Origin: Nitrosospira sp. Nsp2
Lineage (GTDB): Bacteria; Pseudomonadota; Gammaproteobacteria; Burkholderiales; Nitrosomonadaceae
Assembly (NCBI RefSeq): GCF_003050965.1
Contig: NZ_QAOU01000002.1
Span: 1-64,000, forward strand
Direction: 5' to 3'
DNA: 64,000 nucleotides
In this document: in pieces, positions 25,067-64,000 of the stretch
Numbering within the stretch: the stretch's first letter is position 1
How the letters are laid out: each line of letters starts with the position of its first letter
Translations under genes and position numbers: made by a program
The notes under the pieces: model-generated
What the model was told of the DNA's origin: nothing
The model's database searches: none
What the model saw: the letters and a program-made list of their open reading frames with translations, nothing else

Positions 25067-26257
25067 ATGAACTCAATCGATTACGGGTTAAAAATTCGCA
25101 AGACTGCTCTCGCGGCACTGCTGGGTGCCGGCCTGACCGTTGGCCTGACCATGGGGTCGGCAGCCTTTGCCCAAACGGCACGGACGACCTCTTACCTCAT
25201 TGATACGAACAGTTGGCAAGCTACCGAGATTGTTTTTCCCGGAAGAGACACCTTTGCCCGCGGAGTCAACGATCTGGGACAGGTGATCGGCTATAGCGTC
25301 ACAGCAGGGCGTGATCAGCATGCTTTTATAACCGGACCCGACGGGGCGGGGATAACTGATCTTGGCACGCTGGGGGGGCGGAACCGTGTGGCTGAAGGAA
25401 TCAATAGCGCCGGCCGGGTGGTTGGATGGTCCGATACAGTGGGGGAAGGCAGTTCCCACGCCTTTATCACCGGGGCCAACGGGGCGGGCATGACCGACCT
25501 CGGGACGCTGGGTGGGCCGTATAGCGCTGCTCAGGCAATCAACGCCTCCGGACAGGTCGTGGGATATTCCGATACAAGCTCAGGGGGCAGGCATGGTTTC
25601 ATCACCGGCCTCAACGGGGTGGGCATGACTGATCTCGGAACGCTCGGGGGAGCGGAAACCTATGCGTTTGGCATCAACGCTGCCGGGCGCGCGGTAGGGT
25701 ATTCCAGCACGGCAACCGGCAATAGCCATGCGTACATCACAGGCGCGAACGGCGCCGGCATGACCGACCTTGGCACCCTTGGTGGCGGGTTCAGCTCCGC
25801 GCTCGGGATAAACGGCGCCGGTCGGGTGGTGGGGTTTTCCGATACGACCGGAGGGGATCGCCATGCTTTCATTACGGGTCCCGATGGCGTCGGCATGACC
25901 GACCTGGGGACGCTCGGCGGTAATTTCAGTTTCGCAAAGGCCGTCAACGATGCCGGGCAGGTAGTGGGAGATTCTTTTTTTGACGGCACGCCGGGGGTGA
26001 CGCACCCTTTTATAACCGGCGCCAATGGGGTAGGAATGACCGATCTCAATACGCTGGTGCACCTGCCGGATGGAGTAATCCTGACTGAAGCGGGGGGCAT
26101 TAATAATATGGGGCAGCTGGTTGCCACCGCTGCGATTATTCCCGAACCCGCCACCTATGCCCTGATGCTTGCCGGGCTTGTCCTGCTCGGCGTCGTGGCC
26201 AGCAGGAAGTCGGGCTCGAATCGCCGCTCTAATGGCCGTTGGGCTTCAATGGCGTAG
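25067..26257 (+). CDS. HAF-repeat PEP-CTERM protein (lone copy A)
   Basis: 396 residues: a signal peptide (about 1-36, ending AFAQ), then seven repeat units each built on FITGPDGxGMxDLG and a GINDAGQVVG-type core (the cores read GVNDLGQVIG, GINSAGRVVG, AINASGQVVG, GINAAGRAVG, GINGAGRVVG, AVNDAGQVVG, GINNMGQLVA), then IPEPATYALMLAGLVLLG and a basic tail (the PEP-CTERM sorting signal). The family is recognised as the 'probable extracellular repeat, HAF family'; its function is unknown. It lies 24 kb left of the array. Its 3' end overlaps the convergent 26246 gene by 12 bp. Confidence 0.92.
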   Translation: MNSIDYGLKIRKTALAALLGAGLTVGLTMGSAAFAQTARTTSYLIDTNSWQATEIVFPGRDTFARGVNDLGQVIGYSVTAGRDQHAFITGPDGAGITDLGTLGGRNRVAEGINSAGRVVGWSDTVGEGSSHAFITGANGAGMTDLGTLGGPYSAAQAINASGQVVGYSDTSSGGRHGFITGLNGVGMTDLGTLGGAETYAFGINAAGRAVGYSSTATGNSHAYITGANGAGMTDLGTLGGGFSSALGINGAGRVVGFSDTTGGDRHAFITGPDGVGMTDLGTLGGNFSFAKAVNDAGQVVGDSFFDGTPGVTHPFITGANGVGMTDLNTLVHLPDGVILTEAGGINNMGQLVATAAIIPEPATYALMLAGLVLLGVVASRKSGSNRRSNGRWASMA

Positions 26258-42100: not shown

Positions 42101-42421
42101 CACCCGCAGGCTGGAAATGCTAGACCCGACGAGGGATTCCACCAGCCTGTCGAGTGTATGCACGTCGTCTTTTACCCCCGGCTGCGTTGGACGCTTTTGT
42201 TCCAGCTGCCGGTGTGCCTCGATCGCTTCAAAAGGGTCCTGCCACAAACGGGATTGAACCAGGCCCTTTCTCTGGAACATGCTCGTTGCCTTTTCCTTGT
42301 CGATCGGTCGCACTGTTTTAAGCGTGATTCCTTCGTAATAAAGGTAACCGCTTACCATTGCAACCAGCGCAATAAGCCCGGCCAGGGGCAGCTTCGATTT
42401 TTCGTCCTGTTTTTCCGCCAT
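39164..42421 (-). CDS. Large multispanning membrane protein of unknown function
   Basis: 1085 residues. One N-terminal membrane segment (about 12-30), a soluble region of about 600 residues with acidic low-complexity stretches (TANDKDSDKKDDSQ), then six to eight membrane helices in the last 400 residues (for example WVALTVFVLIAGAMLISSS, LWLAVAIAAATGYAIIEWI, GNFIYFPFIIMFLLGMA, ALIIIFTLNAALVIISSMA). I recognise no catalytic motif. It is transcribed alone, with 250 bp on one side and about 600 bp on the other. Probably an envelope protein; function unknown. Confidence 0.75.
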   Translation of the reverse strand: MAEKQDEKSKLPLAGLIALVAMVSGYLYYEGITLKTVRPIDKEKATSMFQRKGLVQSRLWQDPFEAIEAHRQLEQKRPTQPGVKDDVHTLDRLVESLVGSSISSLRVLPVFVDGSPYVNGGESRLKDRYAVVSALGAAGYVPESGEYLRFFKWNPFSDRDKEATAGPEAGIGDIDVLVPVELFLPKAKFHGQPHAKPVLILWLKEQDAGAHPLTFLDDLLASLHKTFARHKSKVDPTYEVLGPRSSAALSAMLKELQTGQPGASPPAFDRLKDVRFFSPWATAEDTFLLDRPPALPSRQQDGQQTNESVQKLFARGQIRLTRTIDTDAVLAEQLLQELKRRQVDLKPCADKNCNPKVALISEWDTLYGRSLPRTFAAVAMNNGSGATGAPLKGEIDKLRRDEWPGWVYRHSYLAGLDGELPATANDKDSDKKDDSQARIRAWYEGELPGVEQNAGQRPEGRAQLDYVLRLAAALKEEEAKNGEEFRAIGVLGSDVYDKLLILQALRPTFPRAIFFTTDLNARLAYPAQWISTRNLIIASHYGLELQSALQTPIPPFRDSYQTSLFYSALWALEHFVPSQKVDCPGCFQLREAMDKAEPLLFSPHVQPRLYEVGRHGAFDISTNPNPRSQSTGDAISIHPPRPDLNRFPFSPAQNWLAQAAWVALTVFVLIAGAMLISSSVANALLRLGSDKLLWLAVAIAAATGYAIIEWIMWRVPNAAENEPFTFTEGISAWPAAIFRLLALVMSLAFLWYSWRKLQQNERTLAQCFMFEEKNEPLGNNTREESSPRPLGAWGIFSSALSSRLRRCIGLHVWRPQTAEQIDAGHLWHEYITLGQWKNFAARALPQLAVAWLAALLLMKLLGFPQTPCRGDACVEINNVAVILAVIALMVLIFYIVDSTRLCRRWVNCIAMKKIRWSGGTLDKLSAERNMSKQTLEEWLSIELIAERTTVIGNFIYFPFIIMFLLGMARHRYFDNWDFPTALIIIFTLNAALVIISSMALRHSAEIAKREVVKRLESRLIRSRQMSDDDQNRQELEWAIQAIKNNHRGAFLPFTQHPVFGAAVALPSGAYGVVLLAEYLATGFGG

Positions 42422-50143: not shown

Positions 50144-50713
50144 AGTATCGCTCCTCTATTTTGAACTGCTCTTCCTTCCAGTTAAAAGCCCAAACCGCGA
50201 ATAGCCGGTTGAATTGAACGAACCCCGCTTCTCCTGCACACGGTTTTGATATTACGGTTTTTCGGAACTATAACAATTGGACCAAAGTACACTTAGTGAA
50301 TCGATGAGGCAGTGGACGGCTTTATAAACGTTCGTGCTCTGTCTGCCGATTGGGCTTCAGTATTAAGCTACCTGATCCCCTAAGAACGCACGCACTACCG
50401 AAGCAGCACGGCGACGGAAGTACACAGTCAGCAGCACCGGATTCCTGCTGGACAAGAGTCGAAGACCTGTCATGCCTCTGGTAGGAGCGGCCTGATGGGA
50501 CCATGTTGCGACGAAAGCGCGTGCTCGTCTAAAACACGCCTCAGAAACTATTACCATTACACGATCGATGCTTTCGCGCGCCCATGTGCTGGAGGAGCCC
50601 CGGGCTTTTACCCTGCCTGACTCTGCAAACGGACTACTACAGCATTGCAGATGCATTTATGTGCTGGTTGGCCTAACTTGACCTAAACCAGGAATTCATC
50701 CTGCCTTGGCAGT
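50144..50713. other. Intergenic region with REP-like sequence
   Basis: About 570 bp without a gene. The stretch 50480-50535 (GGTAGGAGCGGCCTG, GCGACGAAAGCGCGTGCT) resembles a REP-type repeat and shares 22 of 26 bases at 50508-50533 with 58061-58086 in the array. Otherwise unstructured. Confidence 0.45.
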
Positions 50714-50812
50714 TCGGCTCGGTCTCCTTGCTCGGCATATGGAATGAACAATAGCGGTGAAGTGGCGGGTTCGTCCACATCGGCATCCAGCGGCCACCAG
50801 CAGGGGCTGTAC
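50714..50812 (+). pseudogene. HAF-array remnant: half repeat unit
   Basis: TATGGAATGAACAATAGCGG encodes YGMNNSGEVAGSS, a HAF core (GxNNSGxVAGSS), with GSVSL in a shifted frame before it. The promoter and leader of copy B follow directly. Remnant of an older array member. Confidence 0.65.
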
Positions 50813-50903
50813 TGTGTCACATCCGCTGTAACATTTCATAACCTATACTTGAATATCGAAAACACGCTGATCAACCTTGTCCTGATCTTCGTTGGAGGAT
50901 CTG

Positions 50904-51638
50904 ATGAACATTCACCACTGCTACACACTGCGCAACCTTATCCTGGCCGCAGTCCTGACTATTGGGTTCGCATCTTCCGCGCTTGCTCAGGAGCGTGCTT
51001 TTTTAGTTGACCTTAACAGCAAGGAAGCAACCGACCTCGGCACACTCGGTGGAGACTTTAGCTTCGCCAGGGGGATCAACGACATGGGGCAGGTGGTAGG
51101 GGAATCCGTGACTGACAACGGGCAGGTCCGTGCCTTCATCACCGGCCCTGATGGCGTAGGCATGACCGACCTCGGCACACTCGGTGGAGACGTGAGCATC
51201 GCTTACGGAATCAACGACGCCGGGCAAGTGGCAGGGGGATCCGATATTGTCAACGGGGGGACCCATGCCTTCCTCACCGGCCCTGAAGGCGTAGGCATGA
51301 CTGATCTCGGCACACTCGGCGGAGACTATAGCTTCGCTTCCGGGATCAACGACGCCGGGCAGGTGGTAGGGTACTCGTACACTGACAAAGGCCAGTTCGA
51401 TGTCTTCATCACGGGCGCCAATGGCGGAGGCATGACCGACCTCGGCTCCTTGGTGAGTCCGCCGCCCGGTTTTGCTTACTTTGCCCACGCTACAGCCATC
51501 AATAACCATGGGCAACTGGCTGCAGTAGCTGTAGTTCCCGAACCGGAGATGTATGCAATGCTGTTGTCAGGCCTTGGCTTGATCGGCTTTTTAGCGCCCG
51601 GGCGAGCAACTGCATGGAATTTACCATCCAAGGCATAA
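50904..51638 (+). CDS. HAF-repeat PEP-CTERM protein, copy B (four units)
   Basis: 244 residues, B/C/D group. Signal peptide MNIHHCYTLRNLILAAVLTI to SSALAQ. Only four cores are present (GINDMGQVVG, GINDAGQVAG, GINDAGQVVG, AINNHGQLAA), against seven in its relatives, which implies loss of three units. PEP-CTERM: VPEPEMYAMLLSGLGLIGFL, then a short tail. Loss of one base against copy C (CATGGAATTT versus CATAGGAATTT) removed the shared stop and added seven residues (WNLPSKA). GGAGG lies before the ATG. Confidence 0.88.
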   Translation: MNIHHCYTLRNLILAAVLTIGFASSALAQERAFLVDLNSKEATDLGTLGGDFSFARGINDMGQVVGESVTDNGQVRAFITGPDGVGMTDLGTLGGDVSIAYGINDAGQVAGGSDIVNGGTHAFLTGPEGVGMTDLGTLGGDYSFASGINDAGQVVGYSYTDKGQFDVFITGANGGGMTDLGSLVSPPPGFAYFAHATAINNHGQLAAVAVVPEPEMYAMLLSGLGLIGFLAPGRATAWNLPSKA

Positions 51639-51820
51639 AGGATGATTTCCCTCTTTGGCTTCCTTGTCACCTCATGCGTTTGCTCGAAAAAACGATAGAT
51701 CAGCTTTCAATCGCTGTACCTGTCACATCCGCTCTAACATTCATAACCTATACTGGGATATCGAAAACACGCTGGTCAACCTTGTCGTAATCTTTGGCGG
51801 AGGATCTGATGAACATTCAG
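51601..51820 (+). repeat. Duplicated B-C spacer (parallel to 52921-53135)
   Basis: The DNA between copies B and C closely parallels that between C and D: the same end of gene (GGCGAGCAACTGCAT), GCATAAAGG, AAAAAACGAT, CAGCTTTCAATCGCTGTAC, CACATCCGCTCTAACATTC, a TATACT-like -10 and GGAGGATCTGATGAACATTC. The unit of amplification therefore was gene plus promoter. Confidence 0.8.
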
Positions 51821-52937
51821 CATTGCTACCCACTGCGCAACCTTATCCTGGCCGCAATTCTGACTATTGGGTTCGCATCTTCCGCGCTCGCCCAGGAGCG
51901 TGCTTTTTTAGTTGACCTTAACAGCAAGGAAGCAATCAACCTTGGCACAATCGGTGGAGACCGGAGCTATGCAAACGCTATCAATGATGCGGGGCAGGTG
52001 GCAGGGTACTCCGGGACTGCCAACGGGCAGACCCATGCCTTCATCGCGGGCCGTGATGGCATAGGCATGACCGATCTTGGCACACTCGGTGGAGACGACA
52101 GCTATGCTAACGGGATCAATGACGCGGGGCGGGTGGTAGGGTACTCCGAGACTGACAAAGGGCTGACCCATGCCTTCATCGCGGGCCGTGATGGCATAGG
52201 CATGACCGATCTTGGCACACTCGGTGGAGACGACAGCTATGCTAACGGGATCAATGACGCGGGGCGGGTGGTAGGGTACTCCGAGACTGACAAAGGGCTG
52301 ACCCATGCCTTCATCACCGGCCCTGATGGCCTAGGCATGACCGATCTCGGCACACTCGGTGGAGACGTGAGCTACGCTACCGGGATCAATGACGCGGGGC
52401 GCGTGGTAGGGTACTCCTACACTGGCAACGGGCAGACCCATGCCTTCATCACGGGCCCTGATGGCGCCGGCATGACCGACCTCGGCACGCTCGGTGGAGA
52501 CAACGAGTTGGGCTACTGGGATCAACGACGCGGGGCAGGTGATAGGCGTATCCAGGACTGACAACGGTCAGGAGCATGCCTTCATCACGGGCCCTGATGG
52601 CGCAGGCATGGCCGATCTCGGCACACTCGGTGGAAACCAAAGCGTCGCTTACGGGATCAACGACGCGGGAGAGGTGGTAGGGGCAGCCCAAGATGCTGAT
52701 AACCGGGGGCTCCACGCCTTCATCACCAGCCCCAATGGCTTAAGTATGACTGGTCTTGACTCCTTGGTGAATCCGCCGACTGGTTTTACTTACAACTTTA
52801 CGGACGCTAATGCCATCAATAACCACGGGCAGCTGGCTGCAGTGGCAGTAGTAGTTCCGGAGCCAGAGATGTATGCAATGCTGCTGTCAGGCCTTGGCCT
52901 GATCGGCTTTTTAGCGCGCGGGCGAGCAACTGCATAG
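51809..52937 (+). pseudogene. HAF-repeat PEP-CTERM gene, copy C (frameshifted)
   Basis: Signal peptide MNIQHCYPLRNLILAAILTI to SSALAQ, then seven units. The first four lie in the starting frame; near 52502-52506 an extra base (GACAACGAGT where relatives have one codon less a base) shifts the frame and a stop follows at 52561. The rest (cores GINDAGQVIG, GINDAGEVVG, AINNHGQLAA and VPEPEMYAMLLSGLGLIGFL) is intact in the +1 frame to 52937. Without correction the product lacks the last three units and the sorting signal. The frameshift is not in a homopolymer. It could be a sequencing error, a recent mutation or a switch. Confidence 0.85.
52031..52300 (+). repeat. Perfect 135-bp tandem duplication inside copy C
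   Basis: 52031-52165 and 52166-52300 appear identical base for base, each encoding one 45-residue unit with FIAGRDGIGMTDLG and GINDAGRVVGYSETDKGL. Other units in the array differ at many positions, so this copying event is recent. It brings copy C to seven units. Confidence 0.9.
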
Positions 52938-53123
52938 GAATTTCCACCGCAAGCATAAAGGTTGGTGTCCCTCGATCGCTTCCTTGTTATCTCATGTCTT
53001 TTTGCTCAAAAAACGATGCATCAGCTTTCAATCGCTGTACGTATCACATCCGCTCTAACATTCGTGATCTATCCTGAATATCGAAAACACGCTGATCTTG
53101 TCGTGATCTCTGTGGAGGATCTG

Positions 53124-54242
53124 ATGAACATTCACCGCTGCTACACACCGCGCAACCTTATCCTGACCGCGGTCCTGACTATTGGGTTCGCATCCTCCGC
53201 GCTCGCCCAGGTTGCTTTATTGGTTGACCTTAACAGCAAGGAAGTAACCTACCCTGGCATCCTCCCCGGTGGGTTCAATAGCCGTGCTTTGGGGATCAAC
53301 GAGGCGGGGCAGGTGGTAGGGGAATCCGATATAGGCGGCGGGCTGACCCATGCCTTCATCACCGGCCCTGATGCCGCTGGCATGACCGATCTCGGCACGC
53401 TCGGCGGAGCCAGGAGCATCGCTTACGGGATCAACGATGCGGGGCAAGTGGTAGGGCAATCGTACGCTACTGGCAATCAGCAGTTCGCTGGTTTCATCAC
53501 CGGCCCTAATGGGGTAGGCATGACCGAACTTGGCACGCTGGGCGGAACCTGGGTCCAAGCTTTCGGGATCAACAACGCGGGGCGGGTGGTAGGGGAATCC
53601 ACGACTGCCAACGGGCAGACCCATGCCTTCATCACCGGCCCTGATGGCGAAGGCATGACCGATCTCGTCGGCACCCTCGGTGGAGACTATAGCGTTGCTA
53701 GAGGGATCAACGATGCGGGGCAGGTGGTAGGGGTAAACGGGGCTGGCCATGCCTTCATCACGGGCCCCAATGGCATGGGCATGACCGATCTCGGCACGCT
53801 GGGTGGAGACTATAGCTACGCTTTCGGGCTCAACGACGCGGGGCAGGTGGTAGGGTACTCGGCAACTGCCAATGGGCAGATTCATGCCTTCATCACCGGC
53901 CCTGATGGCGCAGGCATGACCGATCTCGGCACGCTGGGTGGAGACTATAGCTTCGCTTTCGGGATCGACGACGCGGGGCAGGTGGTAGGGGTATTCCAGA
54001 CCGGGTTCGCGCCGGCCCATGCTTTCATCACCGGCCCTGGTGGCGTAGGCATGACCGAGCTTGACTCCTTGGTGGACCCGACGCCTGGCTTTAAGTACTT
54101 TAACAGCGCCACTGCCATCAATAACCATGGGCAAGTGGCTGCGGCGGCAGTAGTGGTAGTTCCCGAGCCCGAGACGTATGCAATGCTGTTGTCAGGCCTT
54201 GGCTTGATTGGCTTTTTAGCGCGCGGGCGAGCAGCTGCATGA
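53124..54242 (+). CDS. HAF-repeat PEP-CTERM protein, copy D
   Basis: 372 residues, B/C/D group by leader and signal peptide (MNIHRCYTPRNLILTAVLTI). Seven cores: GINEAGQVVG, GINDAGQVVG, GINNAGRVVG, GINDAGQVVG, GLNDAGQVVG, GIDDAGQVVG, AINNHGQVAA. One unit has an added Val (DLVGTLGG) and the fourth is shortened (VVGVNGAGHAF). Sorting signal VPEPETYAMLLSGLGLIGFL with a short basic tail. GGAGG precedes the ATG; the open frame upstream of it is leader DNA. Confidence 0.92.
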   Translation: MNIHRCYTPRNLILTAVLTIGFASSALAQVALLVDLNSKEVTYPGILPGGFNSRALGINEAGQVVGESDIGGGLTHAFITGPDAAGMTDLGTLGGARSIAYGINDAGQVVGQSYATGNQQFAGFITGPNGVGMTELGTLGGTWVQAFGINNAGRVVGESTTANGQTHAFITGPDGEGMTDLVGTLGGDYSVARGINDAGQVVGVNGAGHAFITGPNGMGMTDLGTLGGDYSYAFGLNDAGQVVGYSATANGQIHAFITGPDGAGMTDLGTLGGDYSFAFGIDDAGQVVGVFQTGFAPAHAFITGPGGVGMTELDSLVDPTPGFKYFNSATAINNHGQVAAAAVVVVPEPETYAMLLSGLGLIGFLARGRAAA

Positions 54243-54340
54243 ACTAATGAGTAATGGACTCTTCATACTTAAACACAATGCGGAGCACATAATGGTGAGG
54301 CGAAAGAAGGCGAAAATTTGGGATAAATAGAGGCTGCCTT

Positions 54341-54369
54341 TTGACAGCTTAACTTCCATCACCTATTTT
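54341..54369 (+). promoter_or_regulatory. Promoter of copy E (TTGACA-N17-TATTTT)
   Basis: -35 54341-54346, -10 54364-54369. The same block, with TACCTT as -10, precedes decayed copy J, so E and J form one promoter group. Confidence 0.7.
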
Positions 54370-54407
54370 GAAGTAAGCGATCCTAAACATGCCTTGCCGG
54401 AGATGCC

Positions 54408-55568
54408 ATGTCACTGAACCGTTGCTTCAAAGTGAGCAACCTCATTCTGAGCGTTGCCCTGATTATCGGCCTGGGCCATGGTACTCATGCCGTCGCCCAG
54501 GAACGCTTTCCATTTCTGATTGACCTCAACACAAGGACGGTAACCCAACTCGAACGCCTGGATGGAGGCACGACCGTACCTAGGGCGTTGAATGATGTCG
54601 GACGAGTGGTGGGATATTATTTTCCCCCAGGTCAGGGACTCCATGGCTTCATTACCGGTCCTGATGGCATGGGGATGAGAAATCTGGGCTTGGCAGGTAG
54701 CAGTGTCGCCGATGACGCCGCGGACATCAATGAGGCGGGGCAAGTGGTGGGACGACGTTCTACTCCAACTCCTTCTTCTACAACTGCCTTCATCACTGGG
54801 CCTAATGGCGAGGGCATAAGGGACCTTGGCTCGTTAGGTGGGGATTTCAGCGCCGCTCAAGGTATTAACGACGCCGGGCAGGTAGTGGGTGAATCTGAGA
54901 CGGCTGAACGCGATTCCCATGCCTACATCACCGGTCCAAATGGGACGGGTATGAGAGATATCGGCGCTTTAGAGGGGAATTTCAGCTCGGCAAGCAGGAT
55001 CAACGATGCGGGGCAGGTAGTGGGGCATTCTACCACAGCTGAACAATATTTCCACGGCTTCATTACGGGCGCTGATGGGATGGGCATGAGGGACCTTGGC
55101 ACTTTAGGCGGGCGAAACAGCTATGCTAATGACATTAACGCTGCGGGCCGGGTGGTGGGAAGTTCTGATACTGCTGCTGAAGGTCACCATGCCTTCATCA
55201 CGGCTCCCGATGGGGTAGGCATGATGGATCTTGGCGCTTTGGGCGGGGGCATTAGCTGGGCTTCCGGCATCAACGATGCGGGCCAGGTGGCGGGAACTAC
55301 CAGCACTGCTGAAGGCGGAGAGCATGCTTTCATAACCGGTCCCAACGGCGAAGGCATGACCGATCTCAATTCACTGGTTGATCTGCCCCCGGGGGTGCTT
55401 CTAATGAATGCCGTGGATATCAATAACAGTGGACAAGTGATTGCTACCGGCGTTCCGGAACCGGAGACCTATGCGTTGCTGCTGGTCGGCTTGGGCTTGA
55501 TTGGGTTCATGGCGCGGCCGAAGCGCCTGCCGTATAAAAAAGCGGATATAAAAGGGCCTGAGTGTTGA
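54408..55568 (+). CDS. HAF-repeat PEP-CTERM protein, copy E
   Basis: 386 residues, E/J group. Signal peptide MSLNRCFKVSNLILSVALII to AVAQ. Seven cores: ALNDVGRVVG, DINEAGQVVG, GINDAGQVVG, RINDAGQVVG, DINAAGRVVG, GINDAGQVAG, DINNSGQVIA. Sorting signal VPEPETYALLLVGLGLIGFM followed by an unusually long basic tail ending PEC. The ribosome site GGAG lies before the ATG. Confidence 0.92.
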   Translation: MSLNRCFKVSNLILSVALIIGLGHGTHAVAQERFPFLIDLNTRTVTQLERLDGGTTVPRALNDVGRVVGYYFPPGQGLHGFITGPDGMGMRNLGLAGSSVADDAADINEAGQVVGRRSTPTPSSTTAFITGPNGEGIRDLGSLGGDFSAAQGINDAGQVVGESETAERDSHAYITGPNGTGMRDIGALEGNFSSASRINDAGQVVGHSTTAEQYFHGFITGADGMGMRDLGTLGGRNSYANDINAAGRVVGSSDTAAEGHHAFITAPDGVGMMDLGALGGGISWASGINDAGQVAGTTSTAEGGEHAFITGPNGEGMTDLNSLVDLPPGVLLMNAVDINNSGQVIATGVPEPETYALLLVGLGLIGFMARPKRLPYKKADIKGPEC

Positions 55569-55622
55569 GGCTACGAGATCTAATCCAAGCTTTTACCCGG
55601 GCTGGCCGGAAGTCGCCCGTTC

Positions 55623-55650
55623 TTGACAATTCGCCTAGGCCGTCTACTCT
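55623..55650 (+). promoter_or_regulatory. Promoter of copy F (TTGACA-N16-TACTCT)
   Basis: -35 55623-55628, -10 55645-55650; the spacer ends in GTC as in copies H, I and L. It lies 53 bp from the ATG at 55703. Confidence 0.75.
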
Positions 55651-55702
55651 AAAAACGTGCTTTTCTCTGTTGCGGTTCAGTTCTTTGCAAGGAGTGCCCA
55701 AA

Positions 55703-56818
55703 ATGAATATGAAAAAAAACGGGGGCTTTAAAGTCGGCATTTTCGTCCTTGGTCCGGTGCTTTTAGCTGTCCTGAGCATTGCTACTCATGCCGATGCGGA
55801 AATTCTCTATTTCATGGACCTTAACAAAAGGACAGTGAGCGAGATTAAGACTTTCGGCGGGTTCAGCACCTTCGGCGGCATAAACAATGCAGGGCAAGTG
55901 GTGGGCGGAGCGACTACCCCTGAAGGGGGTCATTACGCGTTCCTCACCGGTCCGAGTGGCCAGGGCATCAGAAATCTTGGTTCGCTAGGCGGCAACTTCA
56001 GCCGGGCATTAGGGATTAACGATTCGGGGGAAGTGGTAGGCTTCGCCGACACGGCGACTGGCGCGCGTCGTGCCTTTATGACTGGCCCCAATGGCGTCGG
56101 GATGCGGGACTTAGGCACTTTGGGCCGGGATCAAAGCGTGGCTGAAGGCATCAACAATACCGGCCAAGTGGTGGGATATACACAAACCGATACGCAGACC
56201 GGTAGTGATGCGCATGCTTTTATTACTGGTCCCGGCGGTGAGGGCATCAGGGATCTTGACGGCACTTCGGGAGGGGCGACGAACTATGCTTTTGCGATAA
56301 ACGATGCCGGGCAGGTGCTCGGGTTATCCGTAACTTCGGGGGGCGATTTTGTTTCGTTCATAACCGGCCCCAACGGCGCCGGGACGGTGGTTCTTGGCAC
56401 TTTTGGAGGGCGTGGCGACGTTGCCACCGACATTAACGCTTCCGGTCAGGTAGCAGGCGGTGCTGGCATCACGGGTCCCAATGGTATGGGTATGACGACA
56501 CTTGGCACGTTAGGCGCGTCTGGTACCGACGTCACCGATGCTGAAGGACTCAATGATGCGGGGCAGGTGGTTGGAAGTTCTTCCACCTCTGCCGGCGCTA
56601 CTCATGCATTTGTAACCGGCCCCGATGGCGCAGGCATGACGGACCTTAATTCACTGGATTTCCTGCCGGAAGGGGTTCTTCTAACTGCCGCCATGGACAT
56701 CAATAACGCGGGACAGATCATCGCAACGGGTGTTCCGGAGCCGGAATCTTATCTCATGCTGCTGGCAGGACTGGGTATGGTTGTGTTTGCGGCTCGCCGA
56801 AAGCGACCTTTGGCATAG
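55703..56818 (+). CDS. HAF-repeat PEP-CTERM protein, copy F
   Basis: 371 residues. Signal peptide from MNMKKNGGFKVG to ATHADA. Seven cores: GINNAGQVVG, GINDSGEVVG, GINNTGQVVG, AINDAGQVLG, DINASGQVAG, GLNDAGQVVG, DINNAGQIIA; the fifth unit has a shortened connector (GGAGITGPNG). Sorting signal VPEPESYLMLLAGLGMVVFA, then a basic tail. Start chosen at 55703 because AAGGAG precedes it; open sequence upstream covers the promoter. Copy G follows 66 bp later without its own clear promoter. Confidence 0.92.
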   Translation: MNMKKNGGFKVGIFVLGPVLLAVLSIATHADAEILYFMDLNKRTVSEIKTFGGFSTFGGINNAGQVVGGATTPEGGHYAFLTGPSGQGIRNLGSLGGNFSRALGINDSGEVVGFADTATGARRAFMTGPNGVGMRDLGTLGRDQSVAEGINNTGQVVGYTQTDTQTGSDAHAFITGPGGEGIRDLDGTSGGATNYAFAINDAGQVLGLSVTSGGDFVSFITGPNGAGTVVLGTFGGRGDVATDINASGQVAGGAGITGPNGMGMTTLGTLGASGTDVTDAEGLNDAGQVVGSSSTSAGATHAFVTGPDGAGMTDLNSLDFLPEGVLLTAAMDINNAGQIIATGVPEPESYLMLLAGLGMVVFAARRKRPLA

Positions 56819-56884
56819 GAACCTGGTAATCCGCCCCACACGCTTTGTGCTTGGCAGCCTGTCTTTTCCTAAGGAGAACTTCGT

Positions 56885-57991
56885 ATGAAAATTGCCCATC
56901 GTTCCAAAGTTCGAAGCTTTTTCCTCGGTGCAACCCTGTTCGCTGGCTTCGGTTTTGATGGTTATGCCGCTGACCCAGAGCGTTCCTTCCTGATTGATCT
57001 TAACAGTAGAGAAGTGACAGAGTTGGGAAGTTTGGGGGGCGGACGCACTGTTGCAACGGGAATTAACGACCTCGGACAAGTGGTGGGGCAATCCGTTACC
57101 TCTGCCAGCCGATATCATGCTTTCATCACCGGCCCCGACGGTATCGGCATACGGGACCTGGGTATACTTGGGGTTGTAGACCAAAGCTCTGCCACCGCGA
57201 TTAATGGTGCCGGACAGGTGGTGGGGCATTCGGGCGAGGCTTTCATTACCGGGGCTGATGGCAGGAACATGAGGCCTATTGGCAGTTTGGGAGGAGGAAG
57301 TACCTCTGCTCACGATATCAACGCTGCGGGACAGGTGGTGGGACAGTCCTTCACATCCGCGGGTAGTTATCATGGCTTCATTACCGGCCCCGATGGCATG
57401 GGCATGAGGGACCTTGACACTTCGGGTGGGAGAACCAGCACTCCATTGGCTATCAACGATTCTGGCCAGGTGGCAGGGCATTACGTGACATCCGCCGGTG
57501 CGCAGGGCGCTTTCATTACCGGTCCCGATGGAATGGGCATGAAGGACCTTGGTGCGTTGGGTGGCGCTATAACCGATGTTTACGATATTAACGCTGCGGG
57601 GCAGGTGGTGGGGGCTTACCGCGCTTCCTCGGGTGTTACGCATGCTTTCATTACCGGGACCGATGGCGTGGGTATGAGAGACCTTGGGACGCTTGGTGGA
57701 GGGTTTAGCGTCGCACAGGGGATTAACGATGCCGGGGAAGTAGTGGGACGATCAACTATCTCCACCGGCGCTGAGCATGTTTTCATCACCGGTCCCGGTG
57801 GCGAGGGCCTCACGGACCTGAGTTCGCTGGTGGGGCTGCCAGAAGGATTGGTTCAGGTTTACGAGATCGACATTAATAACGCAGGCCAGGTCAGCGCGAT
57901 GGGTATACCCGAACCCCAATCCTACATCATGTTGCTGGCGGGGTTGGCTCTGATCGGGTTCGTGGCGCGGCGGAAGCACCTGCTGGTCTAG
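56885..57991 (+). CDS. HAF-repeat PEP-CTERM protein, copy G
   Basis: 368 residues. Signal peptide MKIAHRSKVRSFFLGATLFA to YAADPE. Seven cores: GINDLGQVVG, AINGAGQVVG, DINAAGQVVG, AINDSGQVAG, DINAAGQVVG, GINDAGEVVG, DINNAGQVSA; the second unit lacks the usual connector (HSGEAFITG). Sorting signal IPEPQSYIMLLAGLALIGFV. It retains the leader block (GTGCTTGGCAG, CCTAAGGAG) but no TTGACA, so it is probably read through from F. Confidence 0.92.
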   Translation: MKIAHRSKVRSFFLGATLFAGFGFDGYAADPERSFLIDLNSREVTELGSLGGGRTVATGINDLGQVVGQSVTSASRYHAFITGPDGIGIRDLGILGVVDQSSATAINGAGQVVGHSGEAFITGADGRNMRPIGSLGGGSTSAHDINAAGQVVGQSFTSAGSYHGFITGPDGMGMRDLDTSGGRTSTPLAINDSGQVAGHYVTSAGAQGAFITGPDGMGMKDLGALGGAITDVYDINAAGQVVGAYRASSGVTHAFITGTDGVGMRDLGTLGGGFSVAQGINDAGEVVGRSTISTGAEHVFITGPGGEGLTDLSSLVGLPEGLVQVYEIDINNAGQVSAMGIPEPQSYIMLLAGLALIGFVARRKHLLV

Positions 57992-58255
57992 GAACTCTTA
58001 GATACTCTCCCCGTATCCGATTACCGCCTCAGGCCAGTGAGCGACCGTTGGATCGATGGCGCGGCGAAAATGCGTGCTGGTCTAAACGTTCGGAGAAGCT
58101 CCACTTATCCGGTCTGAGTCGTCCCGCGCCTCCCGCCTGACCTCCGCGTTTTATACCACCTGACACCTTACTTTTCCAGCAAAGCAGGGCAAATCCGCCG
58201 ATGTGTTCGAGCCCTGGCTGAGCCTGGATAGGCGCAAGCGGAAATTTTTCCCGCC
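57992..58255. other. Spacer between copies G and H
   Basis: About 260 bp before the H promoter. It carries the 26-base match (58061-58086) to the REP-like stretch at 50508. No gene. Confidence 0.45.
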
Positions 58256-58283
58256 TTGACAATTCAGGCCTGTCGTCTACGGT
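58256..58283 (+). promoter_or_regulatory. Promoter of copy H (TTGACA-N16-TACGGT)
   Basis: -35 58256-58261, -10 58278-58283; spacer ends in GTC. Leader follows to AAGGAGAG before the ATG at 58335. Confidence 0.75.
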
Positions 58284-58334
58284 TAGAACTGGTTTTGTTC
58301 GTAGCAGCCCGTCCTTTATTAAGGAGAGCAGGTC

Positions 58335-59441
58335 ATGCGCACATATGGATTCAAACCCGGGAGCTTAACCTTCATCGCAGCCTTGCTCGCCGGCCTCGGA
58401 TTTATTACTCCTGCTGCAGCCCAGTTACAGCCCTACCTCGTTGACCTTAACAGCAGAACAGCAACCACGCTCGGCCCGATGGGAGGGATAAGCACTCACG
58501 CAGCGGCGATCAACGATGCGGGGCAGGTGGCGGGGTCATCTGATCGCGGGGCTTTCATTACCGGCCCCGACGGAATGGGCATAAGGGACCTTGGCCCCTG
58601 GGCAAGCCCTTGGGATATTAACAATGCCGGGCAGGTGGTGGGGGGAAATATTTTTTTTCCCCCTCCCACTGGTGAGTCACATGCTTTCATTACCGGGCCG
58701 GATGGAGTGGGTATAAGAGACCTTGGGACGCTTGGGGGGGATTTCAGCTGGGCGGACGCGGTCAATGATATCGGGCAGGTGGTGGGCACGTCCAGTACGG
58801 CGAGCCGTGGTACACGTGCTTTCATCACCGGCCCCGATGGCGGCAGCATGAGAGAACTTGAGGCGTTTGGTGAAATTTTCGGAGCTTCTGTGCGCTTCTG
58901 GGACATCAACGATGCTGGCCAAGTAGTGGGAGGTATCTTGCCGCCGGGAGGCGATTCTTTTTTTCGTCCTTTCATCACTGGCCCAAATGGGGTTGGCGTG
59001 CGTACCCTTGGTGACGCCTGGGGTGAGGCCACCGGGATCAATAATGCGGGTCAAGTCGTGGGGTCGATGGGACCTCACGCCTTCATTACTGGCTCGAACG
59101 GCGTCGATGTGAAGGAACTTGGGACGCTTGGAGGGGATTACAGCTCGGCCTGGGACATCAACGATGCGGGCCAGGTGGTTGGAATATCCAGTATTACGGC
59201 AGATGGTTCTTTGCATGCTTTTGTTACCGGCCCTAATGGCGATGGCATGACCGACCTCAATTCACTGGTTGACCTGCCTGATGGGGTTGTTCTTACCGAA
59301 GCGAGGGAGATCAATAACGCGGGTCAGGTCATTGCGTACCCTGCGTCCCCCCAAATTCCCGAGCCGAAGATTTATGTCATGATAATTGCCGGGCTGGGCC
59401 TGATCGCGTTGATAGAGCGGCGGAAGCGGCTGTTGCTCTAG
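58335..59441 (+). CDS. HAF-repeat PEP-CTERM protein, copy H
   Basis: 368 residues. Signal peptide from MRTYGFKPGSLTFIAALLAG to PAAAQ. Seven cores: AINDAGQVAG, DINNAGQVVG, AVNDIGQVVG, DINDAGQVVG, GINNAGQVVG, DINDAGQVVG, EINNAGQVIA. Several units are irregular (SSDRGAFITG, NIFFPPPTGESHAFITG), so connectors tolerate insertions. Sorting signal IPEPKIYVMIIAGLGLIALI, shared closely with copy I. Ribosome site AAGGAGAG. Confidence 0.92.
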   Translation: MRTYGFKPGSLTFIAALLAGLGFITPAAAQLQPYLVDLNSRTATTLGPMGGISTHAAAINDAGQVAGSSDRGAFITGPDGMGIRDLGPWASPWDINNAGQVVGGNIFFPPPTGESHAFITGPDGVGIRDLGTLGGDFSWADAVNDIGQVVGTSSTASRGTRAFITGPDGGSMRELEAFGEIFGASVRFWDINDAGQVVGGILPPGGDSFFRPFITGPNGVGVRTLGDAWGEATGINNAGQVVGSMGPHAFITGSNGVDVKELGTLGGDYSSAWDINDAGQVVGISSITADGSLHAFVTGPNGDGMTDLNSLVDLPDGVVLTEAREINNAGQVIAYPASPQIPEPKIYVMIIAGLGLIALIERRKRLLL

Positions 59442-59633
59442 AAACTCTCCAGGAACTCCTGGGTACTCCCCATCTCACCGGCGCCTTCACGGTGGTCGCC
59501 GGCAGGCGGCCGGTGGTTGTTAGCCTGCTGATGCCCGCCTAAAGCCCTACCGTAGCAATCCCAGCGCTTCACCGCAGTCCGGATGTCTTTGTGGGCTGCC
59601 GTAATCGGCACTCTACGCGAATTTTGTGTTGCC

Positions 59634-59661
59634 TTGACAATCCCGCTTTGCGGTCTAATTT
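59634..59661 (+). promoter_or_regulatory. Promoter of copy I (TTGACA-N16-TAATTT)
   Basis: -35 59634-59639, -10 59656-59661; spacer ends in GGTC. Followed by ATGCTTTGCTGGCAG and CCCAGGAG leader sequence. Confidence 0.75.
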
Positions 59662-59711
59662 TAGAACATGCTTTGCTGGCAGTGCCTGCCTTTCCCCAGG
59701 AGACCTTCATC

Positions 59712-60866
59712 ATGAAGATTACCCGTCGTTCCAGGGTGCGGCGCGTTATCCTCGCTTCAGCCCTATTTGGTCTCGGTTTTATTACTCCGGCTGCAGCGCA
59801 GCTGCATCCTTACCTTATTGACCTTAATAGCAGAACAGTGACCGAGCTTGAAGTCGCGGATCTCTTCCTGGAACCTGCACGGGCGATGAACGATGCGGGG
59901 CAGGTGGCTGGAATATTCCTGACACCGGGGAAGGACTACCATGCCTTAATCACTGGTCCGGATGGGGTGGGCATGAGGGACCTTGGCACTTTAGGCGTAT
60001 CCTACAGCGTGGCTCATGGCATCAACAATGCGGGCCGGGTGGTGGGAATTTCGACCAGATATGCCGCCGATTCTTCCGCATGGGAATACCGTGGGTTCAT
60101 CACTGGCCCGGATGGGGTGGGCATGAGGGATGTCGGGAGTTTAGGGGGAACCTTTTCCGAGGGTTGCGACATCAATAATTCCGGGCAGGTGGTGGGTGTA
60201 TCCACCATAGTCGGAGAAACTCAGCATGCTTTCATCACTGGCCCGGATGGGGTGGGCATGAGAGACCTTGGCACTTTAGGCGGAGTCGGACGCATCCCTA
60301 CTCACGTTAACGATGCCGGACAGATAGTAGGCTCGTCTCCGTACGAGACTGGTTCGTTCATCACTGGTCCAGATGGAACGGGAGTGAGAGACCTTGGCAC
60401 GCTCGGCGGCGATTTTACCTTGGCGTCTGGTATTAACGATGCGGGGCAGGTGGCGGGACTGTCTTATACGACGGGCGGCGAAGCTCATGCTTTCATCACC
60501 GGCCCCGACGGCATGGGTATGAGGGATCTCGGCGCTTTAGGCGGGGCTAATAGCGTTGGCCGTGATATCAACGATGCGGGTCAGGTGGTGGGATCGTTCA
60601 GAGCTACTGAGGGAGCTCTTTCGCGTGCTTTCATTACCGGTCCCGATGGCAACGCTATGGTTGATCTCAATTCGCTGGTTGACCTGCCAGGCGGAGTTGT
60701 TCTTGGCGAAGCGGTACTCATCAACAATTCCGGCCAGGTCGTTGCTTACCCTCAAATTCCCGAGCCGAAGATTTATGTGATGATTCTTTTCGGACTGGGT
60801 TTGATCGGACTCTTTGCACGCCGCAAGAAGGCAGAAAACCCCTGGATGAACATGGGTCGCCTTTGA
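59712..60866 (+). CDS. HAF-repeat PEP-CTERM protein, copy I
   Basis: 384 residues. Signal peptide MKITRRSRVRRVILASALFG to PAAAQ. Seven cores: AMNDAGQVAG, GINNAGRVVG, DINNSGQVVG, HVNDAGQIVG, GINDAGQVAG, DINDAGQVVG, LINNSGQVVA. Sorting signal IPEPKIYVMILFGLGLIGLF and a longer tail (KKAENPWMNMGRL). Start at 59712 after CAGGAG; the open frame upstream is leader. Its stop codon lies inside the TTGACA of the copy J promoter. Confidence 0.92.
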   Translation: MKITRRSRVRRVILASALFGLGFITPAAAQLHPYLIDLNSRTVTELEVADLFLEPARAMNDAGQVAGIFLTPGKDYHALITGPDGVGMRDLGTLGVSYSVAHGINNAGRVVGISTRYAADSSAWEYRGFITGPDGVGMRDVGSLGGTFSEGCDINNSGQVVGVSTIVGETQHAFITGPDGVGMRDLGTLGGVGRIPTHVNDAGQIVGSSPYETGSFITGPDGTGVRDLGTLGGDFTLASGINDAGQVAGLSYTTGGEAHAFITGPDGMGMRDLGALGGANSVGRDINDAGQVVGSFRATEGALSRAFITGPDGNAMVDLNSLVDLPGGVVLGEAVLINNSGQVVAYPQIPEPKIYVMILFGLGLIGLFARRKKAENPWMNMGRL

Positions 60867-60891
60867 CAGCTTAAGTTCCATCACCTACCTT
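60863..60891 (+). promoter_or_regulatory. Promoter of decayed copy J (TTGACA-N17-TACCTT)
   Basis: -35 60863-60868 contains the TGA stop of copy I; -10 60886-60891. Near-identical to the copy E promoter block (GCTTAAxTTCCATCACCTA). Confidence 0.65.
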
Positions 60892-60931
60892 GAAGCAATG
60901 GATTGCCAACGCCGCCTTGCGGGAGGATACG

Positions 60932-61485
60932 ATGACGCTCAGACATTGCTTCAAAGTCCGCAGTCTCATTCTAACCACAGCCCTGATGGCGGGTCTCAGC
61001 CCCGTTACTCATGCCACTGCCCAGGAACGCCCGTTCCTTGTCGACCTCAGAGCAGGACAGTAACCGAACTTGGAACCTTAAGCGGCAATCGTACTGTCGC
61101 CTCGGGCATTAACGATGCCGGGCAGGTTGCGGGATATTCGATCACGTCTGAATTCGACCGGCATCCGTTCATCACCGGGTCACGGCGGCAAGGGCATGAG
61201 AGACCTTGGCACTTTGGGCGGGGGTTTCAGCCAAGCTTATGATGTCAACGATGGGGGGAAGGTGGTGGGGCAGTCTGACAAGTTGAGGAGAGGAAGCTTT
61301 TCCTGCACGGTTTCATCACCGGTCCCGATGGCAGGGGAATGCGGGAACTCGGTACCTCAGGCGGGGTAGGCGTCTATCCTGCCGGCATTAACAATGCGGA
61401 GCAGGTAGGAGGGTGGTTACATCCGACCACAGGTAATCCCAATCCCATGGCTTCATCACCGGGCCTAACGGGATGGGCATGAGAG
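60932..61485 (+). pseudogene. HAF-repeat PEP-CTERM gene, copy J (decayed)
   Basis: E/J group. Starts MTLRHCFKVRSLILTTALMA to HATAQ, then stops early because one base is missing in the LIDLNSR-type codons. At least three more frame changes follow (near 61178, 61290 and 61440). Only three cores are readable (GINDAGQVAG, DVNDGGKVVG, GINNAEQVGG), and the sequence jumps from GPNGMGMRE into the leader of copy K, so units four to seven and the sorting signal are deleted. Confidence 0.88.
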
Positions 61486-61540
61486 AGGCCATTAGCCCTG
61501 GGATAGGCCTTTTGCAGAAAAAAACCGAAGAGGATCCATT

Positions 61541-62656
61541 ATGAAAATCATCCTTGGCTTCAAAGTCCGTGGCTTTATCCTCGCTGCAGCATTTTTTGGT
61601 CTGGGTTTGGGCACCGGAGCCTCTGCCCAACAGGCCTCATACCTCATCGACCTCAACAGCAAGACAGTTACCCATCTTGGCACTTTAGGCGGGAATTTCA
61701 GCGTGGCATATGACATCAACGATGAGGGGCAGGTGGTGGGTTATTCTTCAACGGTGGAAGGGGCTGCCCATGCTTTCATCACCGGCCCGAACGGGATGGG
61801 TATGAGGGACCTTGGCACGTTAGGTGCGCCATACGATTATAACAGCATTGGATGGCGTGTTAATGAGGCGGGGCAGGTGGCGGGTTGGTCGAGCACGCCT
61901 GAATTGGATAGTCATGCCTTCATCACCAGCCCCGGTGGGAGGGGGATGAGACCCCTTGGCACGCTCGGCGGTATTCACAGCTTCGCTACGGGCATCAACG
62001 ATGCGGGGCAAGTGGTGGGAGTGTCCGGTTCCCATGCCTTTATTACTGGGTCGGATGGCATGGGGATGAGAAGCCTTGGCACGTTGGGGGGGTATTATAG
62101 CGTTGCTCGGGGCATCAACGAGGCCGGACAGGTGGTGGGAGAGTCTAGCACTGGTGAATTTGGCGATTCCCATGCCTTCATCACCGGCCCTGACGGCATG
62201 GGAATGAGAGACCTTGGCACGTTAGGCGGGGATAGTGTCGCCCGTGACATCAATGATGCCGGGCAAGTAGTGGGAGAGTCCAATTTCCATGCCTTTATCA
62301 CTGGTCCAGATGGCATGGGTATGAAAGACCTTGGCGCGTTGGGCGGTATTTTTCCCTTTAATTCCAGCGAAGCTTTGGGCATCAACGACGCCGGGCAGGT
62401 GGTGGGAAGTTCTTACACTGATGAAGATCGTTTATTCCATGCCTTCGTCACCGGTCCTGATGGGGAAGGCATGATGGACCTCAATTTGCTGCTTGATCTG
62501 CCTGATGGGCTGGTTCTATCGCAAGCTACTGGCATCAATGACACGGGCCAAGTCATCGCCACCGCATTTATCCCGGAGCCGGACTCGTATCTCGTGTTGC
62601 TCGCGGGGTTGGGGCTGGTCGGGTTCATGGCTCGGCGAAAGTGGCGGCCGGCATAA
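61541..62656 (+). CDS. HAF-repeat PEP-CTERM protein, copy K
   Basis: 371 residues. Signal peptide from MKIILGFKVRGFILAAAFFG to ASAQ. Seven cores: DINDEGQVVG, RVNEAGQVAG, GINDAGQVVG, GINEAGQVVG, DINDAGQVVG, GINDAGQVVG, GINDTGQVIA; two units have short connectors (VSGSHAFITG, ESNFHAFITG). Sorting signal IPEPDSYLVLLAGLGLVGFM. GAGGA precedes the ATG. Its own promoter is not evident: transcription may come from the decayed J promoter. Confidence 0.92.
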   Translation: MKIILGFKVRGFILAAAFFGLGLGTGASAQQASYLIDLNSKTVTHLGTLGGNFSVAYDINDEGQVVGYSSTVEGAAHAFITGPNGMGMRDLGTLGAPYDYNSIGWRVNEAGQVAGWSSTPELDSHAFITSPGGRGMRPLGTLGGIHSFATGINDAGQVVGVSGSHAFITGSDGMGMRSLGTLGGYYSVARGINEAGQVVGESSTGEFGDSHAFITGPDGMGMRDLGTLGGDSVARDINDAGQVVGESNFHAFITGPDGMGMKDLGALGGIFPFNSSEALGINDAGQVVGSSYTDEDRLFHAFVTGPDGEGMMDLNLLLDLPDGLVLSQATGINDTGQVIATAFIPEPDSYLVLLAGLGLVGFMARRKWRPA

Positions 62657-62847
62657 AAGATATCGAAAAATGGGTAAAGGAAGAGGCGAACAGCGAAGCG
62701 CCGCGTCCGAGCGACTTGTTCTTGAGGATAGTTCGTTGGGTGGCTCAATTAAAAGCGGTTGAGCGGAATGGGGGCCTCACCGTTAGAAGCAGGCGACCAA
62801 ACGCTGTTGTGCTGGTTGTCGACTGGCCGAAGCGGGGCTCATCCTGC

Positions 62848-62875
62848 TTGACAACGCAGGCCGGTTGTCTATTCT
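62848..62875 (+). promoter_or_regulatory. Promoter of copy L (TTGACA-N16-TATTCT)
   Basis: -35 62848-62853, -10 62870-62875; spacer ends in GTC. Leader GTGCTTTCCGCTGGGCAG and CCGAGGAG follow. Confidence 0.75.
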
Positions 62876-62925
62876 GAGATCGTGCTTTCCGCTGGGCAGT
62901 ACCCCTTCCCGAGGAGTTCTTCATC

Positions 62926-64000
62926 ATGAGAAAAACGCGCGGCTTTAACGTCGGAAGCTTTATTCTCGCTGCAACCTTGTTCGCTGGGCCCGGTTTTATT
63001 GCTCATGCCGCTGCGCAGGAACGCTCCTACCTTATCGATCTCAATAGCAGGACGGTGACCGAACTCGGAGATCTGGGGGGCGGTTTCACCAGGGCCTACG
63101 GCCTTAACGATTCTGGACAGGTAGTAGGAAGTTCCAACACGTCTGCCGGCACGCAACGCGCTTTTATCACCGGCCCAGATGGCGTGGGCATGACTGATCT
63201 CGGTACCCCAAGCGCGAATTCGAGGAGCCAAGCTTATGGCATCAATAATGCGGGCCAGGTGGTTGGATTTTCGGCCACGCCCGAAGGCGCTCCCCGTGCT
63301 TTCATGACCGGGCCCGGCGGGATGGGTATAAGGGATCTTTTCGGGGGCGTTGCTCAGGACATCAACGCGGCTGGGCAGGTCGTCGGCGGAACCGGCGATG
63401 ATTTTCATGCTTTTATCACTGGCCCGAATGGCATCGGCGTGAAAGATCTAGGATACCTGGAGGGAAATTACAGCGTGGCTTTTGGTGTCAATGATCGTGG
63501 CGAGGTGGTCGGGTGGACACCGGTGTCAGGGAATTCACACGCTTTTATCACCGACCCGGGTGGCGCGAATATGAGAGACCTTGGGACTTTGGGCGGAAGC
63601 TTTAGCCACGCTAATGCTATCAACGGTGCGGGGCAGGTCGTAGGATTTTCCTCAAAAGACGATTCGGGTCAGGGAGGGTTTGCTTTCATCACTGGCCCCG
63701 GCGGGGTGGGGATGAGGGACTTGGGCACCCTGGGGCGCAATTCCAGTGTGGCTAATGACATCAACGAAGCCGGGCAAGTGGTGGGATTTTCCGCTACCTC
63801 CATCGATGGCCTTGACCACGCTTTTATCATCAATCCTGATGGTACTGGCATGATCGACCTGAATTCGCTCGTGGACGTGCCGGGCGGCGCTATTCTCACC
63901 CGAGCCATGGATATTAATAACATGGGCCAGGTAATCGCGCTGGGTATTCCCGAACCGGAATCCTATGTCATGTTGCTTGCGGGGCTCTTCATGATCGCGT
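62926..64000 (+). CDS. HAF-repeat PEP-CTERM protein, copy L (cut by window edge)
   Basis: 358 codons before the right edge. Signal peptide from MRKTRGFNVGSFILAATLFA to HAAAQ. Seven cores: GLNDSGQVVG, GINNAGQVVG, DINAAGQVVG, GVNDRGEVVG, AINGAGQVVG, DINEAGQVVG, DINNMGQVIA. The sorting signal begins (IPEPESYVMLLAGLFMIA) and runs off the window; only about ten residues should be missing. The array may continue to the right. Confidence 0.92.
   Translation, partial: MRKTRGFNVGSFILAATLFAGPGFIAHAAAQERSYLIDLNSRTVTELGDLGGGFTRAYGLNDSGQVVGSSNTSAGTQRAFITGPDGVGMTDLGTPSANSRSQAYGINNAGQVVGFSATPEGAPRAFMTGPGGMGIRDLFGGVAQDINAAGQVVGGTGDDFHAFITGPNGIGVKDLGYLEGNYSVAFGVNDRGEVVGWTPVSGNSHAFITDPGGANMRDLGTLGGSFSHANAINGAGQVVGFSSKDDSGQGGFAFITGPGGVGMRDLGTLGRNSSVANDINEAGQVVGFSATSIDGLDHAFIINPDGTGMIDLNSLVDVPGGAILTRAMDINNMGQVIALGIPEPESYVMLLAGLFMIA

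Follow-up and report, generated by a model that had tools for sequence, protein, structure and literature searches.

Secreted HAF/PEP-CTERM proteins of Nitrosospira sp. Nsp2 with a near-constant number of seven units: a predicted closed β-propeller with a variable, putatively binding face

The HAF repeat and the PEP-CTERM tail belong to established protein families, and both occur together in a series of genes within the first 64,000 nucleotides (in the following, the window) of contig 2 (NZ_QAOU01000002.1) of the 3.46 Mb genome of Nitrosospira sp. Nsp2. The HAF model TIGR02913 describes a single 39-residue repeat. For PEP-CTERM genes of proteobacteria, Haft et al. 2006 (PMC1569441) report a sigma-54 site with TTTACA upstream of 99 out of 167 genes. 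With regard to architecture and evolution, two further systems lend themselves to comparison: the Photorhabdus PLL/PHL lectins, which according to PMC6943638 are seven-bladed propellers with sugar sites between the blades, and the WD40 propeller repeats of Podospora HET-D/HET-E. The latter (PMC12222747) belong to NOD-like immune receptors and undergo concerted evolution, and diversifying selection acts on a few hypervariable positions at the face presumed to mediate interaction, while their repeat number is polymorphic (10–12 in sequenced reactive alleles). Finally, DUF3466 (PF11949) is named without a function in a passage of PMC3237569. Here we propose that intact HAF/PEP-CTERM copies consist of a signal peptide, a closed seven-bladed β-propeller built from HAF units of 45 residues each, and a PEP-CTERM tail that would be processed by an exosortase. 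We consider it quite likely that they are secreted propellers in which ring closure keeps the unit number at seven and a variable face provides binding patches.

The copies in the window (named A to L, Table 1) agree with the HAF family in repeat length and motif: the five that were scanned (B, D, E, G, and K) reach 127.4 to 201.6 bits against TIGR02913 at a cut-off of 22.65, and all five also exceed the cut-off for PEP-CTERM (PF07589). The tail of the other copies was assigned by a simple motif and hydropathy rule. Exosortase A (XrtA, 351 bits, cut-off 208) is encoded on contig 4 together with its chain-length, tyrosine-kinase, FemAB, glycosyltransferase, and amidotransferase partners. Exosortase B (XrtB, 458 bits, cut-off 275) lies on the same contig with EpsD, EpsE, and EpsF as well as genes for a GDP-mannose dehydratase and a GDP-fucose synthase-like protein, the latter scoring 463.5 bits and thus below its cut-off of 500, and PrsR (758 bits) is found on contig 7. 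The Pfam matches and the two exosortases support the PEP-CTERM-mediated export that an earlier note on this DNA had postulated. In contrast to the arrangement described for PEP-CTERM genes, no TTTACA occurs within 300 bases of the eleven window copies; this trait is, however, not a defining one, as only part of the PEP-CTERM genes are reported to have it. The PLL lectins are the best structural matches of the predicted copy A structure, whereas a profile search of PDB sequences detected no relative and returned one antibody chain at an E-value of 0.68. PLL proteins are not known to be PEP-CTERM proteins. Unlike HET-D/HET-E, the HAF proteins are secreted and have an almost fixed number of units. 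DUF3466 is matched in part by copies D (30.3 bits) and K (37.7 bits), which exceed the Pfam cut-off of 25.1, whereas copy E stays below it and B and G give no match. In the literature searched, mostly open-access and covered as titles, beginnings of abstracts, and passages of PMC1569441, PMC12019908, and PMC3237569, we found neither a HAF fold nor a repeat number, nor a family-wide seven, a hypervariable aromatic face, or a persistence of seven under unit turnover; the HAF fold may well be visible in predicted-structure databases.

We then turned to the number of units. The HAF/PEP-CTERM genes form a same-strand series from position 50904 to the end of the window, with one further copy (A) at 25067, and a TIGR02913 scan of the Nsp2 genome yielded at least 123 HAF matches (150 of 187 candidates scored). 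With a unit profile of 45 columns, made from 31 distinct units of this genome, we counted seven units each in copies A, D, E, F, G, H, I, K, and L and four in B. Copy L passes the window end up to base 64032 of the contig and is complete there with its seven units (locus L031). Copy C contains four units and the beginning of a fifth in the open reading frame (ORF) 51791–52561, while the remainder of unit 5 through unit 7 is located in ORF 52476–52937; because of this frameshift inside unit 5, the seven units do not constitute one intact protein. The profile bears out the earlier count by eye, in which ten of the eleven window copies have seven units and B has four, with the reservation that C reaches seven only across its frameshift. 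The window paralogues share 51–57% identity with copy G.

For a broader view we scanned 132 sources, namely the 131 loci L031 to L161 in addition to the window. This gave 187 distinct ORFs containing two or more units, 117 of which qualify as complete secreted copies, defined by a hydrophobic segment ahead of the first unit and a PEP-type tail. Seven units are present in 106 of these 117: in 19 of 21 in the Nsp2 genome, where both exceptions have four units (B and L038); in 59 of 64 in other Nitrosospira/Nitrosovibrio, where the others have 2 (a fragment), 5, 8, 10, and 11; and in 28 of 32 outside these genera, where one was counted with six and three with eight. The 70 excluded ORFs are fragments or other architectures and comprise 24 with seven units (10 in the genus, 14 outside) and 46 with another number, mostly short or broken frames. 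Some false six-unit counts arose from a missed degenerate last unit and were re-read by eye before the rule was applied; this rule may overcount (L135 and L138 are given as eight) and gives L121 as six, which has seven by eye. The completeness rule passes the 156-amino-acid fragment L045_10808, which is counted as an exception within the genus, and leaves the four-unit gene L094:1205–1954 of a Nitrosospira multiformis metagenome-assembled genome outside the 117, as it failed the signal rule.

The set of loci retrieved by means of seven-unit queries favors full-length copies, and the genus set covers the matches listed. The least biased sample, drawn at the level of units, comprises 299 Pseudomonadota genomes, of which 14, Nsp2 included, contain HAF. 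Among the other 13, a seven-unit protein occurs in five (by profile in four ORFs, one of them a double seven, and by eye in L168 and L169), a six-unit protein (L175) in one, and an autotransporter-like three-unit protein (L164) in another; in the remaining six no confident unit count was obtained. The double seven is a single ORF (L166:199–2529, minus strand) with two seven-unit sets and a PEP-CTERM-like tail after each, as if two propeller genes had been fused. According to the profile, relatives from Chloroflexota, Euryarchaeota, Verrucomicrobiota, Planctomycetes, Cyanobacteria, and Acidobacteria have seven units as well; they are 36–49% identical to copy A, and several of them lack a PEP tail and stand outside the 117. 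The rare copies with 4, 5, 8, 10, or 11 units speak against a strict fixation of the number. They include a ten-unit (L045:17210–18808) and an eleven-unit copy (L059:345–2108); the latter carries a 543-base duplication without a mismatch and stems from a metagenome-assembled genome, so that it may be an assembly artefact. Three four-unit genes (L038:3070–3885, L094:1205–1954, and copy B) retain both end regions, compared with a single five-unit gene, and four units may represent a second stable form; copy B is set apart from the propeller architecture proposed here. Seven units are the norm in the secreted family but do not apply to every protein that matches HAF. The term invariant used in the earlier note was consequently too strong, given the four-unit L038 and the deviating congeners, whereas near-constancy stands: tabulated across related genomes, the number does not vary freely.

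We next compared the sequence pattern with predicted folds. AlphaFold2 modeled copy G, with nine window copies as alignment, at a predicted local distance difference test score (pLDDT) of 83.2 and a predicted template modeling score (pTM) of 0.80. For the domain of copy A, an alignment of 57 sequences (53 of 54 relatives, one L149 stretch being left out, plus four window copies) raised these values to 97.1 and 0.93, with 303 of 316 residues at or above 90. A Foldseek search of the copy A model against the PDB placed seven-bladed PLL lectins on top (PLL2, 6rg2, E-value 2.8e-8, 315 alignment columns including gaps for the 316-residue query), along with CylK (TMq 0.60–0.63), TolB, and DAIP. By their names, we take all 50 PDB matches listed to be β-propellers, and the list for the copy G model resembles that of copy A. 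By prediction, the HAF domain would hence adopt a propeller fold: each blade would consist of four strands, GGxxSxAxGI, QVVGxSxT, HAFITG, and GMRDL. The ends of the proteins fit this picture. The N-terminal segment "YLIDLNSRTVTEL" is similar to the pair of HAFITG/MRDL strands missing from the last unit, and from the last core to the PEP motif the stretch is too short for such a pair in 56 of 58 cases. In 36 of the 62 proteins, the N-terminal segment outscores 95% of shuffles when compared with the HAFITG-MRD pair (median −11.3 vs −23.3). The complete end layout fits a ring closed by a two-plus-two velcro, in which the N-terminal SYLID and VTEL strands would serve as strands three and four of blade seven, whose own first two strands, xxATGIN and GQVIA, would be the last before PEP; the strands assigned by DSSP in the copy A model agree with this predicted pairing of first and last strands. 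The earlier note had assumed a first unit without its FITG strand. In fact, the N-terminal segment itself scores like a HAFITG-MRD pair, while the truncation of the last unit before PEP holds.

Several observations temper this structural reading. The 53 relatives in the deep alignment had been preselected for seven units, and the TM-scores to solved propellers are moderate (TMq 0.42–0.63 among the 50 matches listed), with TolB, a six-bladed propeller, placed next to the seven-bladed PLL. The N-terminal resemblance exceeds the 95% threshold in no more than 36 of the 62 proteins, and the strand contacts at the seam are predicted from sequence and DSSP strands. Because of the moderate TM-scores and the rank of TolB, the prediction alone is no proof of the number of blades; it is the unit count that provides it. 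Nevertheless, the closed seven-bladed propeller proposed in the earlier note is supported, as both models, A and G, have propellers and no solenoids among their listed PDB matches.

Within this frame, most positions of a unit are strongly conserved and a few are hypervariable. The nine most variable columns (7, 8, 10, 12, 23, 25, 26, 30, and 31) were picked on 258 units of 43 non-Nitrosospira proteins and then applied to the genus Nitrosospira. There, the ratio of nonsynonymous to synonymous polymorphism (pN/pS) amounts to 1.77 (bootstrap 1.43–2.26) in these columns vs 0.24 (0.19–0.30) elsewhere, as calculated from 45 unit pairs that do not overlap and share 80% or more of their DNA sequence. 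Although the nine columns make up just 20.8% of the residues, they contain 371 of 423 tyrosines and 93 of 106 tryptophans (88%) in 372 units. Columns 8, 10, 12, 21, 23, and 25 alone carry 73% of the tyrosines and 76% of the tryptophans and would lie on one face of an antiparallel hairpin that turns at NDAG. A conserved frame with a variable face of Tyr, Trp, and Ser is the typical appearance of binding scaffolds. The hypervariable, Tyr/Trp-rich face thus suggests a diversified binding surface: residues 8, 10, 12, 23, and 25, along with 30 and 31 in the loop, abound in Tyr, Trp, and Ser and would form putative binding patches or clefts, most likely for a polysaccharide of the cell's own matrix or of neighboring cells. 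Polysaccharide is our first guess as a ligand because the XrtB locus sits with genes for the export of extracellular polysaccharide and with GDP-mannose dehydratase and GDP-fucose synthase-like genes. The role in recognition or variation raised in the earlier note becomes more plausible with these tyrosine-rich positions.

This interpretation competes with a possible, if somewhat less convincing, alternative, in which the hypervariable positions are unconstrained surface, the proteins serve as structural matrix components, and the copies have drifted after duplication. Some results count in its favor or against a binding face. The ratios of the closest pairs are 1.21 (0.80–1.90; 14 pairs with at least 86% identity), which is not significantly above 1, and 0.89 (0.49–2.06; 10 pairs with at least 90% identity); since they are compatible with 1, diversifying selection is suggested but not proven. 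Outside the genus (258 units), the same columns hold less of the aromatic residues (71% of Tyr, 41% of Trp), in part because W or Y often occupies column 36 in these units. Several copies, moreover, are broken: C and J in the array and L033 elsewhere in the Nsp2 genome. On the other hand, the contrast between the nine columns and the constrained remainder is clear at every identity cut, nearly the same positions are the most variable in distant relatives too, and neutral drift leaves unexplained why 88% of Tyr and Trp are found at these positions, clustered on one hairpin face.

Because a constant number could also be a mere legacy, we asked how the units of different copies are related. With simple inheritance of the arrays, one would expect the greatest similarity between units that occupy equivalent positions in different copies. 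This is hardly the case: over 62 proteins, unit identity is 56.3% for the same position, 55.7% for different positions, and 59.5% within one protein. In addition, four of the 62 seven-unit proteins contain a pair of units with 88–95% DNA identity. Given this near absence of position-specific kinship, seven appears to be maintained beyond mere inheritance. Ring closure would hold the total at seven while units are exchanged, duplicated, and lost, and we regard it as the simplest reason why the number stays constant despite unit duplication. Two findings qualify this view: a small same-position excess (0.007 in the Nsp2 genome) is reached by none of 500 permutations, which indicates some inherited order, and saturation at variable sites may blur positional kinship. 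The excess also fits the explanation that one seven-unit gene was inherited and duplicated too recently for the number to drift, ring or not, as does the fact that the copies are paralogues and, in the window, mostly tandem. We nonetheless deem shared ancestry alone an unlikely reason for seven, as the number recurs in the relatives from other phyla at the identities given above, the positional identity of units is nearly all lost, and recent unit duplications lie in arrays that still total seven.

Similarly improbable is a store for phase or antigenic variation, in which recombination between copies would alter the expressed surface. Tandem paralogues and broken copies would be expected of such a store, as would the high numbers of HAF matches in two genomes (123 in one, at least 150 in the other) compared with 6–45 in eleven other congeners, among the matches listed. 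However, the copies have individual upstream regions and start sites, so that no single expression site is visible, and no slippage tract was seen by eye at the frameshift of copy C. A TTGACA box with a TA-rich hexamer at similar spacing precedes copies E, F, H, I, and L (sites include 54341–54369 and 62848–62875), and each gene may have its own promoter. A general scan for promoters and terminators gave counts equal to chance; the case for the boxes therefore comes down to their recurrence before five of eleven copies. Control by sigma-54 was also considered and dismissed, as there was no clear site but four scattered weak sigma-54-like matches. Finally, a solenoid that stays open or a chain of small units, whose number would be set otherwise, e.g., by the thickness of wall or capsule, is highly improbable: the number is indeed not absolute (4 to 11, with three units in L164 and six in L175), but both models match propellers and not solenoids among the PDB matches listed, and the last unit is cut where the N-terminal strand pair would complete the blade.

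The positions of all copies are compiled in Table 1. The array contains two broken copies, the frameshifted C and the fragmented J, which point to birth and death of copies.

Table 1. HAF/PEP-CTERM copies and remnants in the window.
Feature	Position	Strand	Basis
Copy A: signal peptide, 7 HAF units, PEP-CTERM-like tail	25067..26257	+	Unit profile, completeness rule, AlphaFold2 model
Possible HAF unit remnant upstream of B	50732..50789	+	Weak match, 13.6 bits, 19 residues, ORF 50687-51010
Copy B: signal peptide, 4 HAF units, PEP-CTERM	50904..51638	+	Unit profile; PEP-CTERM above Pfam cut-off
Copy C: 7 units over two frames, frameshift in unit 5, probably inactive	51809..52937	+	ORFs and profile
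Copy D: 7 HAF units, PEP-CTERM	53124..54242	+	Profile, Pfam, TIGR02913
Copy E: 7 HAF units, PEP-CTERM	54408..55568	+	Profile, Pfam, TIGR02913
Copy F: 7 HAF units, PEP-CTERM-like tail	55703..56818	+	Profile, completeness rule
Copy G: 7 HAF units, PEP-CTERM	56885..57991	+	Profile, Pfam, TIGR02913, AlphaFold2 model
Copy H: 7 HAF units, PEP-CTERM-like tail	58335..59441	+	Profile, completeness rule
Copy I: 7 HAF units, PEP-CTERM-like tail	59712..60866	+	Profile, completeness rule
Broken copy J: HAF units in three short frames	60850..61482	+	ORFs 60850-61242, 61082-61369, 61279-61482
Copy K: 7 HAF units, PEP-CTERM	61541..62656	+	Profile, Pfam, TIGR02913
Copy L: 7 HAF units, PEP-CTERM-like tail, beyond window end	62926..64000	+	Profile, contig

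The earlier note had placed the array beside matrix genes, which is correct only in a loose sense. Two polysaccharide deacetylases are encoded at 27537–29391, the first of which starts 1.3 kb past copy A, and the window contains a PelB-type outer-membrane protein with tetratricopeptide repeats and a β-barrel (189–3767, minus strand; PF24604, 289.6 bits). Around the tandem array, however, no matrix operon was found among the eight window ORFs scanned with Pfam, and XrtA, XrtB, and the polysaccharide export genes are located on another contig. Elsewhere in the window, we noted an AIPR family protein (4557–6314, plus strand; PF10592), a family presumably linked to abortive infection, and an ORF of 1085 amino acids (39164–42421, minus strand), which has no Pfam match at an E-value of 0.001 and by eye looks membrane-bound. 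A phage origin of the copies was considered as well; copy G, the one copy scanned, has no match in PHROGs.

These results would assign a fold, an almost exact number of repeats, and a probable functional face to a widespread repeat family for which neither structure nor function emerged from the literature searched. Tentatively, we picture a repertoire of secreted seven-bladed binders with a Tyr/Trp/Ser-rich patch per blade, diversified by exchange and duplication of units while closure fixes their total, so that some strains would possess their own set of at least 20 receptors of the surface or matrix, which might serve self-recognition in aggregates. The family is also a natural system for testing whether the closure of a ring preserves the number of repeats during unit turnover, and it suggests a route by which soil ammonia oxidizers might diversify their surface or matrix.

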